NCBI GenBank assembly: GCA_029834535.1
Contig: JAQMWT010000673.1
Span: forward strand, 1 to 64,000
Source of the DNA: Chrysophaeum taylorii
Taxonomy: Eukaryota > Sar > Pelagophyceae > Pelagomonadales > Pelagomonadaceae
Length of the DNA stretch: 64,000 bases
Direction: 5' to 3'
Shown here in pieces: positions 6,901-54,415 of the stretch. The notes below the pieces were generated by a model that saw nothing but the letters and a program-made list of their open reading frames with translations, was not told where the DNA came from and searched no databases. The first letter of the stretch is position 1; every line of letters starts with the position of its first letter. A program made the translations under genes and the position numbers.

Positions 6901-8458
6901 CCTCGTCTGGGCCTTCGCCGCGCGGTCGTGCCACCAAGACGACGACGACGCCGGCCGCTACGCCGCATCCAAGATACGCGCCGCCGTGCTCTGCCTCTCG
7001 GCGAACGCGCTCAAGGCCGCGCGCCGGCGCGCGACGCCCGCGGCCGTCGACCCCCTCCGCCGCGCGGCCGTCGCCCTCGTCCGCGCCGTCGCCGACCTCG
7101 ACGGCGACCAGACGCCCCTTCTCGACGACGCCTTCGCCCTCTGGCTCGAAGCCCTCCGCGCGACGCCCCCCGGCGCCGACGAGACCCTCGACGCCGAGTT
7201 CGACCTCGTTTTCGCGCGCTACGTCTCCTCCCCGAGCGCTTTCGTGGCCGTCGGCCCGGGCCTCTCGCTCGTCGACGCGAGCCTTCGCCTCGCCCCCGCC
7301 GCGACGACGGCCCCGCCCGCCGACACCCTCGACGCCCACGCCCTCGCCGCCCTCGACGAGGCCCTCACGGCCCCCTTCCTCGCGATCGTCCAGGGTTACC
7401 TGTTGCGCGCGGGAGGCCGCGATTCGGGCCTCGTCGCCGCCTCCTCGGCCCTCGCGCTCTGCGGCATTTCCAAGCTGGACGCGCTCGAGATACGCGTCGA
7501 AGACGATTTTTATCAAAGCTATGCCGCGAGGAGCGAAAACCTGCCGGATGATTGCCCGAACCTCGAAGTCGAGGTGGCCGCCGTCCTCGCGGCCTTCGTC
7601 GTCGCCGAGCTCGTCTTGCAGACGGCCGGCCGCCAAGCCCTCGTTTCCTGCGAACCCCTGAAGCGCGCCGTGCGCCTCGCGTCCGTCTTCCCCGCCGACT
7701 GCCAACCGACGGCCGCGCCCCTCGTCGACGGCGTCCTGCGACCAACCGCCGGACCTCGCGTCAACGCGCGCTACGAATCGCGCTTCGTCGACGCCCGCGT
7801 CACCCTCGTCTCGAGGGCCATCCTCCAAGCCCGCGGCGACGCATTCCTCGCCTGCGGCGTCGCGGCCGCCGCAAACGACCAAGACGACGACGACGCTTCG
7901 GACCTCGTGCGAACGGCCCTCGCGAACATCTTCGAGCTCGCCGCGCGCCGAACGCTCGACGATCTCGCCGTCGTCGCATCATCGCGCGGCGCGGCCCCGC
8001 CCCCCCGCCGCGTCGTCGCCGCCTCGCTCGCCGCCGCCGCGGCCCTCGCCGACGACCGCTCGGCAAACGCCGCCTGGGCCTCGCTCCCCGCCATCCTTCG
8101 CCTCTGGGCCCGCGCGCTTTTCGAGCTTCGCCGCGCCGCCGACAGATGTCCCCCGATAGATCTCGCCCGACGTCGAATGCACGACGCCCTCAGAGAGTGG
8201 AAGCTCCCGCTTTCCGAGACCGAGTACGACGAGCCCGATCCGACCGTCGACTCCCCGCAAGTCCTCGACTCTATTGCGACCGCCGCGCGCCGCCTGCAGC
8301 GCGACGACATCATCCACACCGCTTCTCTCGTCGACGCCGCGAAGCACGCGCTTTCAAGAGCCGCCCCGACCAGGGGCGGACCCCAGGCTATCCAGGCCGC
8401 GGCAGACCAGGTCAATCCCCCGGATCTTCGAAATATTCTCGTCCAGCTCCTATCCTAG
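3992..8458 (+). CDS. Importin-beta superfamily karyopherin (importin-11-like)
   Basis: A 1488-residue, Ala/Arg/Glu-rich, almost wholly helical protein. The N-terminus (AEARLAGWENEGGFW..., AGEVLCSDAARLLGAVVAKNAVARAV) matches the importin N-terminal Ran-binding domain pattern, in which a helix ending 'L..WE..pgF' is followed by 'lAa...KN.v'. The rest looks like HEAT-type helical repeats interrupted by low-complexity loops, including a His run near residue 510 and Gly/Asp runs. Importin-11 is about 975 residues, so this is an expanded member. It would act in Ran-dependent nuclear transport; the cargo is unknown. The start at 3992 (MEGEVLRTL) was preferred over open frame further upstream because that upstream part overlaps the divergent Fe-S gene. 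The family is fairly likely, the subfamily uncertain. Confidence 0.6.
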   Translation: MEGEVLRTLEMCVHHGCSAEERREAEARLAGWENEGGFWIALVWPCERVAIAGEVLCSDAARLLGAVVAKNAVARAVQRDRRKEGVRWSSSDPAEKEVLERACAHGALLESNDAVATQLALLLATICRAEARSEDDSLGAAPKIMASLAAFATGVSAGDARSPNLAALAAEARPWVATSGAALAAAARVPGVVAVRRALRCLKHCVRSCVDEARELETTPSAAVLSAFAANKAARPSSSAEIEDEYHGGGVIVVSSLAVREQVFIRARETLNKAQTKRERRMSALAASAAMLSTVASRAWIATAREVASLHHREDVDPQEERRRKRIEDETLVACRWLRCLEALVSGTRSLAEVARRYSSLAATRPPEGGGGTTTAAAAAVPTLLSSPEAVLLPALGGTSAPLVEALADVARSAGDAKLARLASDTLRALVEARCVAESAATTAAMTIASTFVDDEAFSRRLDRAPERAVAAMRCLGKLALEDYDDDGGGGGSSRGRSNISEEDAMAADESHHHHHHHYRDPMDMLCDSATSLEISESSRRRTSSGGGEAAGGRAEIEAIDPVDQRAAPALIETVLNETGFVEALIKRYFALSPAELGACASGESERLYARECRAVGSSASASWNASASLFASCSSRRLTREAPSLADEDAVEDPWNDARRLVEEARPTAEALVVSLCVRAPNIVSRAVLGACEAHFEADNVVVIDACYRAIGLVAPLLPSRGERALVNFGDLWRSRLEPALSSAPPRVAADARVADAILRARCLWLVSRFRRAIFDETLATDDGRATTAPVEVSLLASVLPAILHHANPAAFPDARLALSAIDAHCSILETTVERHRAGSLYARRLARENARREEEARRDEEDGVAFFAPKDAATTLSEGNGARALTTVWRAIAMVRAACASIAGRAVAVAREARTPEGALRCLQCVALCVEAASLEDFSGPRRDDIDDAALGELVAALGAVVANELVPLVWAFAARSCHQDDDDAGRYAASKIRAAVLCLSANALKAARRRATPAAVDPLRRAAVALVRAVADLDGDQTPLLDDAFALWLEALRATPPGADETLDAEFDLVFARYVSSPSAFVAVGPGLSLVDASLRLAPAATTAPPADTLDAHALAALDEALTAPFLAIVQGYLLRAGGRDSGLVAASSALALCGISKLDALEIRVEDDFYQSYAARSENLPDDCPNLEVEVAAVLAAFVVAELVLQTAGRQALVSCEPLKRAVRLASVFPADCQPTAAPLVDGVLRPTAGPRVNARYESRFVDARVTLVSRAILQARGDAFLACGVAAAANDQDDDDASDLVRTALANIFELAARRTLDDLAVVASSRGAAPPPRRVVAASLAAAAALADDRSANAAWASLPAILRLWARALFELRRAADRCPPIDLARRRMHDALREWKLPLSETEYDEPDPTVDSPQVLDSIATAARRLQRDDIIHTASLVDAAKHALSRAAPTRGGPQAIQAAADQVNPPDLRNILVQLLS

Positions 8459-9394
8459 ACCCCGCTCGCGCCCCTTTGAAAGGAAAGGAAAGGAAAGAGG
8501 GGGAGCACTACTTCTGCTTTCTATCCGCGGCGGATCGCGCGGTGGTGATGATTCCGCGACAAACAAGCGCGGGGTTTCCCCTCCTTCTCCTCCTCCTCCT
8601 CTTCATTTTCGTAGTCTTGCCCGCACGTCTTTTTTTTGCGACGAGAGATCGACCGACCGACCGACCGACCGACCGACCGACCGACCGACCGACCGACCGA
8701 CCGACCGACCGACCGACCGACCGACCGACCGACCGACCGACCGACCGACCGACCGACCGACCGACCGACCGACCGACCGACCGACCGACCGCCCGACCGA
8801 CCGACCGACCGACCGACCGACCGACCGACCGACCGACCGACCGACCGACCGACCGACCGACCGACCGACCGACCGACCGACCGACCGACCGACCGACCGA
8901 CCGACCGACCGACCGACCGACCGACCGACCGACCGACCGACCGATCTTATCCGGGCGCCGCTTTGCCATCATCCCCGGTCGTGCCGTCAGAGGAACTTTC
9001 CTGCGTTTGATTATTATTCGCACCACTCAGGCGCGTGCCAGCCAGCCAGGCAGCCAGACAGCCTCCTCACGAGGTTTAGTTCGTCGGCCCGCGCAACGAT
9101 GCTTCTCCTTCTGCTGCTGCTGCTGCTTCTTCTTCTGATTGTTGTGGGCGCGTGTCGGCGGCACCTTTTGTTATTCTTTGGGCGCTCGTTTCAAGTAACC
9201 CGCCGCCGAGCTCCGCCGCGTACCCCTCCCTCCTTACATCGAGCGAGCGAGCGAGCGAGCTTGCTTGACCCTATTACCATCAACGGATGTCAAATCCAAT
9301 TTCTTAAAAAGAAAAATAATCTTACGTCGTAAATCTTAAAAAAAAAACAAACGAAAAATCCAAAAAAAAAGCCTTAATTAATCACGATGACGTC
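8459..9394. other. Intergenic spacer dominated by simple repeats
   Basis: Between the importin-like and CFAP99 stop/start there is a roughly 296-bp GACC microsatellite (listed separately), a short CTG/CTT tract near 9105-9140, a GAGC tract at about 9240-9260, and an A-rich stretch at 9300-9380. The (GACC)n open frames encode only PTDR/SVGR repeats and are not supported as genes. Confidence 0.7.
8649..8944. repeat. (GACC)n tetranucleotide microsatellite, about 74 units
   Basis: An almost perfect head-to-tail GACC array, with a single visible unit change at 8792 (GCCC for GACC). The same tetranucleotide recurs as a short tract at about 15086-15112 in the Rab18/EF-hand convergent spacer. Such a long, nearly pure array is likely length-variable between individuals. 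Confidence 0.95.
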
Positions 9395-27829: not shown

Positions 27830-27865
27830 CTTTCCCTTAAAAATAACTAACCCTCACCCCCGCCA

Positions 27866-27882
27866 ATCTAAGCTGCTTTGAT
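27866..27882 (+). promoter_or_regulatory. 17-bp imperfect palindrome next to a CCAAT sequence in the MalY/HflX promoter
   Basis: ATCTAAGCTGCTTTGAT (half-sites match 7/8 around a central T) directly follows CCGCCAATC, 12 bp upstream of the HflX ATG. The same block occurs in every copy of the Helitron-derived repeat (copy C more diverged) and elsewhere in the window. Confidence 0.6.
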
Positions 27883-27894
27883 CAGCGCAGGCTG

Positions 27895-36299: not shown

Positions 36300-37358
36300 C
36301 AAGTGCAGGCCAGTAAGTTCACCTAGTCCCAATCTCTAACCCCAGTAAGTTCACCTGGTCCCAGTAAGTTTCATATAAGTTCACCTGGTCAGTAAGTTCA
36401 CCCAGCTCACACCAACTCCTTTGAGCTCGTCGCTCTCGCCTCCGCCAATCCAAGCTGCTTTGATCCGCACGCGCCGCCAACCTTTGAGTTTACTCTAAAC
36501 ACCCTTTACTCTAAAAGCCCCAGTATGTTCACCTGGTCCCAGTAAGTTCACCTGGTCACTATATTCACCTATCCCAATCTCAAACCCCAGTAAGTTCACC
36601 TGGTCCCAGTATGTTCACCTACAGTGCGCGTGTAGACGCCGGGAGGGGGCTTATCGGTATTGCGGAGCACGTGTGAGGTAGGGTGGAGTCGTCGACTCAG
36701 AAGAGCATATTCTCGGGGTTGCCGATCGACAGAGAGCCACGTAGAGCTGGACGTGACAGAAGACGGGCTTGTGGGCAAGAGGACGCCGACCTCGCGGGGC
36801 GTCTGGCCCTGGCTCTTGGTGATCGTTTGGCGTCGGCGGGCCTTACGGGATACAGGTTGGAGGAGCCTCGGTGACAACGACACGATCGATCATGTATCTG
36901 GTACCGTTGCAGTGGCCGTGCGACGGGTCGAGGTTGCGAAGACTTTAAGCTCGCGCTCAAAGTCAGCATCCCGTTGGTTGTCAGGGAGTTGAAAACTCGA
37001 CTGTAAAGAGCGAGGCGTCGGCTTCCGACCCAACCTAGTCGGCCGAAAAGAACTCCGACGCCTCGTCTTCGGGAAAAAAAGGCCGCGGTCATGCGCGCGT
37101 TGTCAGCATCGACAACATCGTTTCGACGGGGCGTGAGAATGGCGCGCTGAAAGAGCCGCCGCGGGTCGTGGAAATAGTCTGCGAGGTCGCCGTAGACGGC
37201 TTGGAAGATCACTGTCTGGCTCTCGCGCCTACCTGATCCTTACTCTCGCGCCTACCTGATCCTTACCCTAAATCGAGGGACCCCCCCCTCTTAGTAGTCG
37301 ACATTTTAAGACAGACAAACAGACAGACAGACAAACATCTGTCGATTAGTAGTTAGGA
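36300..37358 (-). mobile_element. Helitron-derived repeat, isolated copy A
   Basis: An approximately 1.06-kb unit bounded by CAAGTGCAGGCC and GTAGTTAGGA. Read on the minus strand it carries the last part of a Helitron/PIF1-type helicase. Visible blocks are AVYGDLADYFHDP, RAILTPRRNDVVDADN, FNSLTTNGM, NLDPSRGHCNGTR-type sequence, INKSQGQT-type motif VI and a LYVAL.R-type end, spread over more than one frame. It therefore does not encode a working protein. The helicase part is followed (minus direction) by iterated AGGTGAACTTACTGGG motifs and the 17-bp palindrome. It shares diagnostic variants with array copy E. An extra ~30 bp C-rich insert near 37281-37310 is absent from other copies. Confidence 0.75.
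36448..36464 (+). repeat. Palindromic motif copy (in Helitron copy A)
   Basis: ATCCAAGCTGCTTTGAT preceded by CCGCCA. It differs from the MalY/HflX promoter copy by one base. Confidence 0.8.
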
Positions 37359-37471
37359 AGAACAAACAAAATTTGGGGGGTTAGGTTTCGTACCGCCACG
37401 TCAGCTCACCATGTACACTCTTCGTGCTAACCCCGCCAATCTAAGCTGCCCGCACCCTCTTAGTAGTCGAC
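37286..37471. repeat. Direct pair of CCCTCTTAGTAGTCGAC
   Basis: The 17-mer occurs at 37286-37302, inside Helitron copy A where other copies lack it, and again at 37455-37471 just outside. The second copy follows a truncated palindromic motif (ATCTAAGCTGC at 37439-37449). Confidence 0.7.
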
Positions 37472-47932: not shown

Positions 47933-49071
47933 CTAAACGACAGAGTCGGCGTCGAAACTGCCCTCCTCCTCCTCCTCCTCCTCCTGGTTGTCAAGTTTCG
48001 CGGCCGGGCGGTCCGGGAGCCAGAGGAGCGCGTTGAGGCGCTGCATGCAGTAGACGGACGCGATGGGCGTCTTGTCGCGCCGGGTCGTGTCCCAGACGTG
48101 GCAGTGGCCTACGGGAGGCCGGGTGACATCGCGAAAAAAAATAAAAAGAAGACGGACGGTCCAAGCCGGCGGCGGCAACAAACGTGTCAATCGAGGGGTG
48201 GCGCGCGAGGGCTCGCGTCGAGCCCGCGGGCCCGACGAGGCGCTCGACAACCCTGAGTTTCTTGAGATCAAAGGTGACGACGTTGCCTGCGACGTCGCCG
48301 ACGAGGGCGCGGTCGCCACCGAGGAGAATGAGCTGGCGCACGGCGTGGTCCATCGCCTCGACCGTCTCGGCGACCGGGCGTCGCTGGGCGCGCGCGTCGT
48401 ATACGCGAAGCTCCTTATATTTAGTGCCGATGACGAGCTCGTGGTCGCTCGCAAAGCGTGCGGCGCCCACGAACACAGGCCTTCGCATGTCGAGCTTGTC
48501 GTTGGGCACGTTCCGCGCGCGCCATCGTCGTTCGCTCGTGGCGAGATCCCAAACCGAGAGCTCGTGCTCCCTCCCCCCGACGGCGACAAGCCCCTCGCGG
48601 CAGTCGAACGCGCTCACCGAGCCCTCGACGTCAAAGGTCGATCGATCGCCAGCCGAGCTCGTCGCGCCCGACGTCACTTGCACGCGCCCATCGTCGGAGC
48701 ACGAGACGACCTGCGCTCCGAATCATCGATTCCGACGAACGGACCTACCGCTTCGTCGACACAACCGAGCCCGACGCACTCGCCGACCAGCCCCGGGCAG
48801 GAGGCTACCAGCTCCCACGCGTCGTCTCTGCAGGCGTCGTCTTCAGCGCACGCGACCACACGTACTCAAAGCCCGCCGCGGCCTCCTCCCAAGTCTCGAG
48901 TTCGCCGCTCGCGCGCGCGCATAAAAATTGTCCATCGAAGCGCTGCGCGAGCGCCTTGACCCCGCGGGACCGGGCCTGCGAGCACGACGTGCTCACCAAC
49001 CGCGTCGCGCTGCTCTTCACGTCCACGACCTTGAGCAGTCCGGTCTCATCGCCACACACCAGGCGCCACAT
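47933..49071 (-). CDS. WDR74: WDR74/Nsa1-type WD40 ribosome-assembly factor
   Basis: Exons 49071-48866, 48827-48749, 48710-48158 and 48108-47933 (introns 38, 38 and 49 nt) give 337 residues. It starts MWRLVCGDETGLLKVVDVKS. WD features are VVSCSDDGRVQVTSG and GREHELSVWDLATSERRWRA. The WDR74 signature RNVPNDKLDMRRPV...ARFASDHELVIGTKYKELRVYD is followed by RRPVAETVEAMDH, HPSIDTFVAAAGLDR+HCHVWDT and an acidic tail after WLPDRPAAKLDNQ. Nsa1/WDR74 works with the AAA ATPase Rix7/NVL in 60S subunit maturation in the nucleolus. The start codon is only ~29 bp from the Helitron array, leaving almost no private promoter. Confidence 0.83.
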
Positions 49072-49266
49072 TTACGACGACGACGGGTTTAGTTAGGAAC
49101 AAGTGCAGGCCAGTAAGTTCACCTAGTCCCAATCTCTAACCCCAGGAAGTTCAGGTCTGGTCTCAGTAAGTTCACCTTAGTCCAAATCTGTGACCGCAGT
49201 AAGTTCGGCGTAAACCCACTCGTGCTCACACCAACTCCTTCGAGCTCGTCGCTCTCGCCTCCGCCA

Positions 49267-49283
49267 ATCTAAGCTGCTTTGAT
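49267..49283 (+). repeat. Palindromic motif copy (array copy B)
   Basis: ATCTAAGCTGCTTTGAT after CCGCCA, identical to the MalY/HflX promoter copy. Confidence 0.85.
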
Positions 49284-51337
49284 CCGCACGCGCCGCTAAC
49301 CTTTGAGTTTACTCTAAAACCCCCAGTATGTTTACACTTGGTCTCAGTAAGTTCACCTGGTCACTCAATCCACCTAGTCCCAATCTCTAACCCCAGTAAG
49401 TTCACGTGGTCCCAGCAAGTTCACCTATAGTGCGCGTGTAGACGCCGGGAGGGGGCTTATCGGCATTACGCAGCACGTGTGGGGTAGGGCGGAGTCGTCG
49501 ACCCAGAAGAGGATATCCTCGGGGTTGCCGATCGACAGAGAGCCACGTCGAGCTGGACGTGGCAGAAGACGGGCTTGTGGGCAAGAGGACGCGAACCTCG
49601 CGGGGCGTCTGGTCCTGGCTCTTGTTGATCGTTTGGCGTAGGCGGGCCTTAAGCGATACAGGTTGGAGGAGCCTCGGTGACAACGACACGATCGATCATG
49701 TATCTGGTACCGTTGCAGTGGCCGTGCGACGGGTCGAGGTTGCGAAGACATTAAGCTCGCGATCAAAGTCAGCATGCCGTTGGTTGTCAGGGAGTTGAAA
49801 ACTCTACTGTAAAGAGCGAGGCGTCGTCTTCCGACCCAACCTAGTCGGCCGAAAAGAACTCCGACGCCTCGTCTCCGGGAAAAAAAAGGCCGCGGTCATG
49901 CGCGCGTTGTCAGCATCGACAACATCGTTTCGACGGGGCGTGAGAATGGCGCGCTGGAAAGAGCCGCCGCGGGTCGTGGAAATAGTCTGCGAGGTCGCCG
50001 TAGACGGCTTGGAGGATCACTGTCTAGCTCTCGCGCCTACCTGATCCTTACTCTCGCGCCTACCTGATCCTTACCCTAAATCGAGGGACAAACAAACAAA
50101 CAAACAGACAAACATCTGTCGATTAGTAGTTAGGATAAACAAGTGCAGGCCAGTAAGTTCACCTACTCCCAATCTCTAACCCCAGTAAGTTCACCTGTTT
50201 CTGTTAAGTTCACCTGGTCAGTAAGTTCACCTAGCTCTAACCAACTCCTTTGAGCTCGTCGCTCTCGCCTCCGCCAACCTAAGCTGCTTTGGTCCGCACG
50301 CGCCGCCAACCTTTGAGTTTACTCTAAAAACCCTTTACTCTGAAAACCCCAGTATGTTCACCTGGTCCCAGTTTCACCTGGTCACTCAGTCCACCTAGTC
50401 CCAATCTCAAACCCAGTAAGTTCACCTGGTCCCAGTAAGTTCACCTATAGTGCGCGTGTAGACGCCGGAGGGGGCTTATCGGTATTGCGCAGCACGTGTG
50501 GGGTAGGGGGGAGTCGTCGACCCAGAAGAGGATATCCTCGGGGTTGCCGATCGACAGAGAGCCACGTCGAGCTGGACGTGGCAGAAGACGGGCTTCGCCA
50601 AGAGGACGCGGACCTCGCGGGACGTCTGGCCCTGGCTCTTGTTGATCGTTTGGCGTAGGCGGGCATACAGGTTGGAGGAGCCTCGGTGACAACGACACGA
50701 TCGATCACGTATCTGGTACCGTTGCAGTGGCCGTGCGACGGGTCGAGGTTGCGAAGACATTAAGCTCGCGATCAAAGTCAGCATGCCGTTGGTTGTCACG
50801 GAGTTGAAAACTCTACTGTAAAGAGCGAGGCGTCGTCTTCCGACCCAGCCTAGTCAGCCGAAAAGAACTCCGACGCCTCGTCTCCGGGAAAAAAAGGCCG
50901 CGGTCATGCGCGCGTTGTCAGCATCGACAACATCGTTTCGACGGGGCGTGAGAATGGCGCGCTGAAAGAGCCGCCGCGGGTCGTGGAAATAGTCTGCGAG
51001 GTCGCCGTAGACGGCTTGGAGGATCACTGTCTGGCTCTCGCGCCTACCTGATCCTTACTCTCGGGCCTACCTGATCCTTACCCTAAATCGAGGGACAAAC
51101 AGACAAACAGACAGACAGACAGACAAACATCTGTCGATTAGTAGTTAGGACAAGTGCAGGCCAGTAAGTTCGCCAGTAAGTTCACCTGGTCCCAATCTCT
51201 AACCCCAGTAAGTTCACCTGGCCCCAGTAAGTTCACCTAGTCCCAATCTCTAACCCCAGTAAGTTCGGTGTAAGCCCACTCGTGCTCACGTCCACTCACC
51301 CCACTCTCCTTCGAGCTCGTCGCTCTCACCTCCGCCA

Positions 51338-51354
51338 ATCTAAGCTGCTTTGAT
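51338..51354 (+). repeat. Palindromic motif copy (array copy D)
   Basis: ATCTAAGCTGCTTTGAT after CCGCCA, identical to the MalY/HflX promoter copy. Copy C (near 50272-50295) has a more diverged version. Confidence 0.85.
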
Positions 51355-52417
51355 CCGTACACGCCGCTCGCCTTTGCGTTCACTCTAAAAACCCCTGTAA
51401 GTTCACTTGGTCTCAGTAAGTTCACCTGGTCACTAAGTTCACCTAGTCCCAATCTCAAACCCCAGTAAGTTCACCTGGTCCCAGTAAGTTCACCTACCGT
51501 GCGCGTGTAGACGCCGGGAGGGGGCTTATCGGTATTGCGCAGCACGTGTGGGGTAGGGTGGAGTCGTCGACTCAGAAGAGGATATCCTCGGGGTTGCCGA
51601 TCGACAGAGAGCCACGTAGAGCTGGACGTGGCAGAAGACGGGCTTGGGCAAGAGGACGCCGACCTCGCGGGGCGTCTGGCCCTGGCTCTTGTTGATCGTT
51701 TGGCGTAGGCGGGCCTTACGGGATACAGGTTGGAGGAGCCTCGGTGACAACGACACGATCGATCATGTATCTGGTACCGTTGCAGTGGCCGTGCGACGGG
51801 TCGAAGACATTAAGCTCGCGATCAAAGTCAGCATGCCGTTGGTTGTCAGGGAGTTGAAAACTCTACTGTAAAGAGCGAGGCGTCGTCTTCCGACCCATCC
51901 TAGTCAGCCGAAAAGAACTCCGACGCCTCGTCTCCGGGAAAAAAAGGCCGCGGTCATGCGCGCGTTGTCAGCATCGACAACATCGTTTCGACGGGGCGTG
52001 AGAATGGCGCGCTGAAAGAGCCGCCGCGGGTCGTGGAAATAGTCTGCGAGGTCGCCGTAGACGGCTTGGAGGATCACTGTCTGGCTCTCGCGCCTACCTG
52101 ATCCTTACTCTCGCGCCTACATGATCCTTACCCTAAATCGAGGGACAAACAGACAGACAGACAGACAAACAAACAGACAGACAGACAAACATCTGTCGAT
52201 TAGTAGTTAGGACAAGTGCAGGCCAGTAAGTTCACCTAGTCCCAATCTCTAACCCCAGTAAGTTCACCTGGTCCCAGTTAGTTTCTTGAAAATTTATTGA
52301 TTAAGTTCACCTGGTCAGTAAGTTCACCTAGTCCAAATCTCTAACCCCAGTAAGTTCGGTGTAAACCCACTCGTGCTCACACCCACTCCTTCGAGCTCGT
52401 CGCTTTCGCCTCCGCCA

Positions 52418-52434
52418 ATCTAAGCTGCTTCGAT
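52418..52434 (+). repeat. Palindromic motif copy (array copy E)
   Basis: ATCTAAGCTGCTTCGAT, one change from the promoter copy. Confidence 0.8.
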
Positions 52435-53044
52435 CCGCACGCGCCGCCTACCTTTGAGTGAGTTTACTCTAAAAACCCTTTGCTCTAAAACCCCAGTATG
52501 TTCACCTGGTCCCAGTAAGTTCACCTGGTCACTAAGTTCACCTAGTCCCAATCTCAAACCCCAGTAAGTTCACCTGGTCCCAGTAAGTTCACCTACAGTG
52601 CGCGTGTAGACGCCGGGAGGGGGCTTATCGGTATTGCGGAGCACGTGTGAGGTAGGGTGGAGTCGTCGACTCAGAAGAGCATATTCTCGGGGTTGCCGAT
52701 CGACAGAGAGCCACGTAGAGCTGGACGTGACAGAAGACGGGCTTGTGGGCAAGAGGACGCCGACCTCGCGGGGCGTCTGGCCCTGGCTCTTGGTGATCGT
52801 TTGGCGTCGGCGGGCCTTACGGGATACAGGTTGGAGGAGCCTCGGTGACAACGACACGATCGATCATGTATCTGGTACCGTTGCAGTGGCCGTGCGACGG
52901 GTCGAGGTTGCGAAGACTTTAAGCTCGCGATCAAAGTCAGCATGCCGTTGGTTGTCAGGGAGTTCAAAACTCGACTGTAAAGAGCGAGGCGTCGGCTTCC
53001 GACCCAACCTAGTCGGCCGAAAAGAACTCCGACGCCTCGTCTCC

Positions 53045-53136
53045 GGGAAAAAAAGGCCGCGGTCATGCGCGCGTTGTCAGCATCGTCTTCGGGAAAAAAA
53101 GGCCGCGGTCATGCGCGCGTTGTCAGCATCGACAAC
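53045..53136. repeat. ~45-bp tandem duplication inside array copy E
   Basis: The block CGGGAAAAAAAGGCCGCGGT...GTTGTCAGCATCG occurs twice in a row only in copy E, which explains its greater length (1131 bp). Confidence 0.85.
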
Positions 53137-53467
53137 ATCGTTTCGACGGGGCGTGAGAATGGCGCGCTGAAAGAGCCGCCGCGGGTCGTGGAAATAGTCT
53201 GCGAGGTCGCCGTAGACGGCTTGGAGGATCACTGTCTGGCTCTCGCGCCTACCTGATCCTTACTCTCGCGCCAATCTGATCCTTACCCTAAATCGAGGGA
53301 CAAACAGACAGACAGACAAACATCTGTCGATTAGTAGTTAGGACAAGTGCAGGCCAGTAAGTTCACCTAGTCCCAATCTCTAACCCCAGTAAGTTCGGCG
53401 TAAACCCACTCGTGCTCACACCCACTCACCCCACTCTCCTTTGAGCTCGTTGCTCTCACCCCCGCCA

Positions 53468-53484
53468 ATCCAAGCTGCTTTGAT
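53468..53484 (+). repeat. Palindromic motif copy (array copy F)
   Basis: ATCCAAGCTGCTTTGAT preceded by CTCACCCCCGCCA. The upstream match to the MalY/HflX promoter is longer than in the other copies. Confidence 0.8.
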
Positions 53485-54355
53485 CCGCACGCGCCGCCAA
53501 CCCTTGAGTTTACTCTAAACACCCCAGAAAGTTCACCTGGTCCCAGTTAGTTCACCTGGTCCCAGTTAGTTCACCTGGGCACTCAGCTCACCTAGTCCCA
53601 ATCTCTCACCCCAGTAAGTTCACCTGGTCCAGTAAGTTAACCTACAGTGCGCGTGTAGACGCCGTGAGGGGGCTTATCGGTATTGCGCAGCACGTGTGGG
53701 GTAGGGTGGAGTCGTCGACTTAGAAGAGGATATCCTCGGGGTTGCCGATCGACAGAGAGCCACGTAGAGCTGGACGTGGCAGAAGACGGGCTTCGCCAAG
53801 AGGACGCCGACCTCGCGGGGCGTCTGGCCCTGGCTCTTGGTGATCGTTTGGCGTCGGTGGGGCTTGAGGGATACAGGTTGGAGGAGCCTCGGTGACACGA
53901 CACTATCGATGATGTATCTGGTACCGTTGCAGTGGCCGTGCGACGGGTCGAGGTTGCGAAGACTTTAAGCTCGCGATCAAAGTCAGCATGCCGTTGGTTG
54001 TCAGGGAGTTGAAAACTCGACTGTAAAGAGCGAGGCGTCGGCTTCCGACCCAACCTAGTCGGCCGAAAAGAACTCCGACGCCTCGTCTTCGGGAAAAAAA
54101 GGCCGCGGTCATGCGCGCGTTGTCAGCATCGACAACATCGTTTCGACGGGGCGTGAGAATGGCGCGCTGAAAGAGCCGCCGCGGGTCGTGGAAATAGTCT
54201 GCGAGGTCGCCGTAGACGGCTTGGAGGATCACTGTCTGGCTCTCGCGCCTACCTGATCCTTACTCTCGCGCCAACCTGATCCTTACCCTAAATCGAGGGA
54301 CAAACAGACAAACAGACAAACAGACAGACAAACATCTGTCGATTAGTAGTTAGGA

Positions 54356-54415
54356 CTCAAAGGTGCCGCCGCGATCAAAGCAGCAGCTTAGATTTTGGTT
54401 GGCGGGGTTTGGAGC
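54356..54415 (-). repeat. Inverted partial copy of the Helitron-unit core next to the array
   Basis: Directly after copy F the plus strand reads ACTCAAAGGTGCCGCC... then ATCAAAGCAGCAGCTTAGAT and GGTTGGCGGGG. This is the reverse complement of the CCGCCAATC/palindrome/CCTTTGAGT part of each unit. It has a 3-bp CAG expansion in the palindrome. Confidence 0.7.

Follow-up and report, generated by a model that had tools for sequence, protein, structure and literature searches.

Bats, plants, insects and fungi are already known to carry tandem Helitron arrays, so that the array reported here, from the pelagophycean alga Chrysophaeum taylorii, is of a known kind. Canonical Helitrons run from TC to CTRR with a 3′ hairpin (PMC5148889), and perfect end-to-end joints and circles are known for them (PMC2267711, PMC5876387, PMC5148889). 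Specifically, adjacent Helitrons occur in maize, where the way in which the joints arise is disputed (PMC2267711); arrays in bats and silkworm have been ascribed to bypassed termination (PMC4067079); tandem copies with joined ends are on record for bat, Drosophila, rice and maize (PMC5148889); head-to-tail junctions have been described together with circles (PMC5876387); and tandem repeats lie within Helentron derivatives (PMC7492417). Here we describe five tandem units and a sixth, solitary copy in a 64-kb stretch of C. taylorii DNA (contig JAQMWT010000673.1, positions 1 to 64,000; ‘the window’ hereafter), and argue that they probably represent a family of non-autonomous, internally deleted Helitrons whose members were joined end to end at least twice at this locus, after which exchange scrambled the array.

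A boundary scan confirmed the array that an original prediction, made from the letters alone, had placed at positions 49100–54355: five head-to-tail units of 1.01–1.13 kb each, all on the minus strand, with three of the four joints free of any spacer (Table 1). These three joints read CACTTG^TCCTAAC, while the u4/u5 joint reads CACTTG-TTTA-TCCTAAC. Repeat finding returned families with up to five copies at a spacing of about 1.0–1.15 kb, and the array units are 93.7–96.3% identical to one another (gaps excluded and, as for all identity figures given here, each unit's final base omitted), so that a chance origin of the array is out of the question. Individual units carry their own alterations: u2 has an internal 46-bp tandem duplication, and u1 is without part of the 3′ repeat region present in the other copies. 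At the left edge of the array, u5 is followed by a T and then by TCCTAACTA, which repeats the first nine bases of the element; apart from this site, the 64-kb window has these nine bases nowhere but at the starts of the six units. The simpler reading is the stub of a further unit, the other a resemblance of the target to the element.

The sixth copy, which the original prediction had overlooked, came to light about 12 kb from the array when the window was searched by BLAST with a single unit. Its first 32 bases and its last bases are the same as those of the array units, and a self-comparison of the window (E up to 1e-10, length >80 bp) detected no similarity between its flanks and those of the array, which nonetheless share a short dispersed motif. 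Because the solitary copy ends identically, both termini are fixed independently of the array, and what is repeated is a two-ended element instead of a 3′ fragment. The idea that the unit had kept nothing beyond the helicase end and the terminus next to it must accordingly be replaced by that of an internal deletion derivative, as the solitary copy shows that the 5′ terminus and a leader of roughly 130 bp were kept. The same ends bear on the possibility that the unit never transposed at all, and that unequal crossing over instead spread a satellite of the host, or a gene fragment duplicated in tandem, whose scrap of helicase is there by descent. Exchange between units is indeed clear, and the two known loci both lie inside one 64-kb window; yet a solitary copy with the same exact ends and no long similarity beyond them is not a product of unequal crossing over, and we consider a purely satellite origin very improbable. 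As a separate observation, 17 bases of the solitary copy (37286–37302) are identical, on the same strand, to host positions 37455–37471 (GTCGACTACTAAGAGGG; E 0.016). In the copy they lie inside an insert absent from the other copies, and the host match lies ~100 bp beyond its 5′ end; this is perhaps a locally templated insertion made after the element had landed.

In element orientation, the unit consists of the 5′ leader, which holds a (TGTC/TGTT)n microsatellite, a broken helicase coding sequence spanning roughly 550 bp when its frames are read by eye, a 3′ repeat region and the CACTTG end. Two 23-bp repeats are found in all six copies, and the 3′ region of every copy contains iterated GGTGAACTTACTGG-type motifs (5–8 matches per copy at ≤2 edits). 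Among the helicase blocks originally reported from each unit, RAILTPRRNDVVDADN and CNGTR are indeed present in six of six copies, whereas INKSQGQT is found in only two (u3 and u4; the variants are ITKSQGQT in the solitary copy, u1 and u2, and INKSQDQT in u5) and LYVAL in four (LDVAL in u4 and u5), and the blocks sit in different frames of the broken coding region. The assignment to a Helitron-type helicase was borne out by protein comparison: the best PDB match of the u1 frame is the Helraiser transposase (7lcc, E 7e-9), within residues 1354–1457 of 1496 and in two stretches, 1354–1379 (weak alone) and 1418–1457, followed by an AAA ATPase (0.047) and by PIF1 helicases (0.066 or worse). The u3 piece again finds Helraiser (E 1.2e-7, next match 0.039). 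The CNGTR piece of the solitary copy and u2 scores 25.4 bits against Pif1_2B_dom, where the cut-off is 23.9, and the u1 frame falls just below it at 23.1 bits. The block RAILTPRRNDVVDADN has no helicase match in PDB or Pfam, and we take it to be Helitron-like on the basis of helicase motifs, which also point to the presumed true frame within the broken region. By these matches, the coding remnant is that of a Helitron-type PIF1-like helicase of which C-terminal pieces alone are left.

The remnant is dead in the same way throughout. FFSAD is followed by TAG, an in-frame stop, in all six copies, and a run of Ts (seven in five copies, eight in one) puts neighbouring helicase blocks in different frames, again as read by eye; lesions common to all six copies are most simply read as the amplification of a dead founder. 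Helitron_like_N (the HUH Rep domain) had no match in 32 reading frames scanned, eight of them from the array and the whole set a subset of those in the window. The lack of Rep in the units is expected because the copies are non-autonomous, and in this and in the head-to-tail order of the units the original description of a non-autonomous, tandem family stands. Variable columns are unevenly spread along the alignment of the copies: within columns 90–790, one 200-column stretch (122–369), inside the dead coding region, is nearly invariant and holds 3 variable columns, while the permutation minimum averages 8.1 (p 0.0036). Variability rises toward the 3′ repeats, where the copies differ by about 7–21% (columns 900–1050). 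The near-invariance of columns 122–369 may reflect homogenisation or constraint.

The termini are uniform and of no standard type. All six copies begin with TCCTAAC, in agreement with the canonical Helitron 5′ TC (the first T belonging either to the element or to the host), and all six end in CACTTG, which departs from the canonical CTRR just as had been predicted. The 3′ ends of u1, u4, u5 and the solitary copy, the four that were folded, do not exceed shuffled sequences in stability (z 0.78 to 2.16). A stem scan run without control found 9-pair stems only in u1, 43–78 nt from the end and so deeper than the 10–12 nt of a canonical Helitron hairpin, and no stem of more than 6 pairs in any of the remaining copies. 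An ungapped search of the first 60 against the last 250 bases for asymmetric terminal inverted repeats gave a best match no better than shuffles in any of the six copies. The copies thus carry neither the terminal signatures of canonical Helitrons nor those of Helitron2/Helentron, and the suggested placement in the latter group finds no support in their ends. A candidate 5′ stem-loop (GACAGAT/GTCTGTC, six of six copies) merges into the TGTC microsatellite, and the u1 version does not outperform shuffled sequence (z −0.01); it is not claimed here. Three insertion sites can be deduced: G^T at the 5′ flank of the array, A^T at u5 by way of the TTTA spacer and T^T at the solitary copy, where no target site duplication was seen by eye. 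One of the three would be an insertion between A and T, and a T^T target would fit all three solely on the view that the T with which the element begins belongs to the host.

Table 1. Coordinates of the array units, the solitary copy and associated features in the 64-kb window.
Feature	Positions	Length	Strand	Evidence
Solitary copy, same two termini as array units	36300..37358	1059 bp	-	BLAST and boundary scan
TCCTAACTA, 9-base copy of element 5′ terminus just beyond the u5 3′ end	49090..49098		-	
u5, 3′-most	49100..50135	1036 bp	-	Boundary scan
TTTA spacer, u4/u5 joint; sole joint with spacer	50136..50139		-	Boundary scan
u4	50140..51150	1011 bp	-	Boundary scan
u3	51151..52212	1062 bp	-	Boundary scan
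u2	52213..53343	1131 bp	-	Boundary scan
u1, 5′-most in element orientation	53344..54355	1012 bp	-	Boundary scan
3′ non-coding region of u1 with GGTGAACTTACTGG-type repeats	53344..53643		-	
u1 reading frame with helicase C-terminal blocks (LRNLDPSHGHCNGTRYII, ITKSQGQT...PVFCHVQLYVAL)	53674..53964		-	Helraiser match

The relationships among the six copies are those of a mosaic. In the 5′/helicase part of the alignment (columns 0–860) the unrooted tree is ((u1,(u2,solo)),(u3,(u4,u5))), where solo is the solitary copy, with supports of 95/95 for the three–three split, 98/95 for u4 and u5, and 90/92 for u2 and the solitary copy; the array units are not star-like, there being two supported inner branches in this part. 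In the 3′ part, the solitary copy instead joins u4 (support 99/94), with which it has gaps of 12 bp and 15 bp in common (the split at column 860 was picked after inspection of the sites). Among 43 informative characters (gapped columns, changes confined to one copy, columns with three or more letters and microsatellite gaps being excluded), 454 of 903 pairs are incompatible, and the incompatible characters are clustered, such that neighbouring characters conflict less than in any permutation (0 of 5000 as low). Such clustering is a mark of recombination or gene conversion, which is also indicated because the solitary copy is nearest to u2 in the helicase part and to u4 in the 3′ part.

This history speaks to one form of the concatemer that the original prediction had envisaged, in which a single rolling-circle event with missed termination made the whole array and only point mutation followed. 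An origin of this kind has been proposed for bats and silkworm (PMC4067079), and the three zero-spacer joints fit a circle or read-through, yet it predicts a star in place of the two supported inner branches, and recombination among the characters and the differing, TTTA-bearing u4/u5 joint also stand against it. The approximately unbiased (AU) test, moreover, rejects a clade that would unite u1–u4 to the exclusion of u5 and the solitary copy (p-AU 0.0006 for all columns, 0.0003 for the 5′/helicase part and 0.019 for the 3′ part); this rejection, from a dataset with one solitary copy, concerns the u1–u4 grouping alone. On balance a one-step concatemer is disfavoured, and we regard it as quite improbable.

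The main rival is the serial insertion of different family members, which would have landed independently in T-rich targets, each exactly where a resident copy has its 5′ end, with no rolling-circle read-through. A T^T rule would yield exactly the observed joint, and the base after CACTTG is T in six of six cases; adjacent insertions are known in maize (PMC2267711); and the identity of the solitary copy to u2 (97.2%, gaps excluded) is higher than that of any pair of array units, while its identity to the other four (94.1–95.0%) is like that of array pairs. Serial insertion would, however, require three hits exactly at the end of a resident copy and one 4 bp off, and array neighbours tend to be sisters in the helicase-part tree, a pattern that tandem duplication explains better. 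We judge it unlikely.

From the units themselves, their shared ends and lesions, their Helitron-type helicase and their mosaic relationships, we infer instead a history of repeated joining followed by exchange. The unit keeps its 5′ terminus and short leader, a dead C-terminal Rep/helicase piece and a ~300-bp repeat-rich 3′ terminus, and would have been mobilised in trans. Head-to-tail joining would have come about by Helitron end joining, through a circle junction or missed termination, or by insertion at the end of a resident copy. Since the zero-spacer and TTTA joints differ, there would have been at least two joining events at the locus, one giving rise to each, in whatever order; once present, a zero-spacer joint could be copied by unequal exchange. 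Most likely, Helitron-type end joining would have seeded the array, and unequal exchange or gene conversion would have expanded it and mixed its units, and the solitary copy would be a u2-like/u4-like mosaic because of such unequal exchange or gene conversion.

Several points weigh against repeated joining and exchange within a Helitron family. With no CTRR at the 3′ end, nor a hairpin beyond shuffles in the four such ends folded, recognition by a standard Helitron transposase is no more than putative; no Rep-encoding partner with the same ends occurs among the 32 window frames scanned, and only one Helitron is among the PDB matches. Gene conversion could have spread the shared lesions in place of a dead founder, and could equally have erased a single-event history. 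Finally, the tree has no outgroup: rooted on the solitary copy, the five array units trivially form one group, and to place that copy within the array is to assume approximately equal rates, the basis being its identity to u2 in excess of that between units.

It is conceivable, if rather unlikely, that the array acts as a recombining reservoir that exports chimeric units (u2-like helicase, u4-like 3′ part) one at a time, the copy at 36–37 kb being an example, in a Helitron subgroup without CTRR/hairpin or inverted-repeat ends; if so, a tandem Helitron array would generate new non-autonomous variants. Even apart from this, the array is a small record of how Helitron arrays form, in which shared coding lesions suggest the amplification of a dead founder and mosaic relationships favour repeated joining and exchange over a one-step concatemer. 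Should these ends prove to be a distinct type of terminus in an autonomous partner, the array would add a subgroup that end-based Helitron finders miss.

The genes of the surrounding window mark it as eukaryotic (poly(A) polymerase, CLPTM1, Nup54, MTP18 and a Na+/H+ exchanger), and the host is a gene-dense, GC-rich eukaryote. A gene that shares the minus-strand orientation of the array has its ATG at 49071, with 28 bp between it and the 3′ end of the array upstream; the second frame of this gene has weak WD40 matches, all below curated cut-offs, and the first none. We read it as a candidate WDR74/NSA1 with a short intron between its two frames; if so, the array separates it from its former upstream sequence. 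At this boundary (49071–49100), u5 may provide the WD40-like gene with its promoter region. On the other side of the array, the right flank from 54356 resembles, in inverted orientation, the block of the unit that begins CTCAAAGG, as if the array had been inserted beside an inverted older copy, with a score of 65 against a best of 57 in 100 shuffles; this is too weak to be accepted, and may be just the dispersed motif.

That motif, GATCAAAGCAGCTTAGATTGGCGG, of ~25 bp, is present in all six copies and also outside them: at 27853–27886, at the junction of an HflX-like gene with an aminotransferase frame on the minus strand (E 5e-9 in a search of the window), in weaker form beside the solitary copy (37431–37449) and in degenerate form beside the array (54373–54400). 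It is possibly a host promoter element or some other dispersed repeat. A (CGAC)n microsatellite at 8650–8944, with about 74 units and 99% matches, lies inside two long open frames (7552–9135 and 8160–9329). Scans for tRNAs and Rfam families (at the gathering threshold) returned nothing. Searches of contig collections of viruses and prokaryotes, where zero matches say little, gave none to exact DNA patterns of the dispersed motif, 3′ repeat and 5′ terminus in viral contigs or to the 5′ terminus in genome contigs, and patterns of helicase pieces found 6 and 55 stretches in viral contigs, none confirmed by tblastn.

How, then, does this locus compare with described Helitrons? Among the matches listed in the algal literature no title dealt with such an array, which is not proof of absence. 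Tandem or adjacent Helitrons of Myotis, maize and Bombyx likewise have spacer-free head-to-tail joints, which have been explained both by read-through and by serial insertion (PMC2267711, PMC4067079), and compared with those arrays the inner copies here retain both ends. Canonical Helitrons have CTRR and a hairpin, whereas the present units end in CACTTG, and the four 3′ ends that were folded gave no stable hairpin. FoHeli and other fungal Helitron2-type elements (PMC5148889) likewise have non-CTRR ends, together with repeated partial 5′ ends, joined-end PCR products and, in Metarhizium acridum, one case of three tandem copies, but FoHeli elements have asymmetric terminal inverted repeats, none of which are detectable here. 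Helentron-derived HINE/DINE-1 elements are similarly non-autonomous, with an internal microsatellite and short repeats and with a T-rich target that the present copies may share (PMC4067079, PMC7492417), and the present unit differs from them in keeping a piece of helicase coding sequence and in showing no detected subterminal inverted repeats or 3′ stem-loop. The solved protein closest to that piece is the Helraiser transposase (PDB 7lcc), relative to which the unit has lost the Rep domain and most of the helicase, and keeps the C-terminal part.

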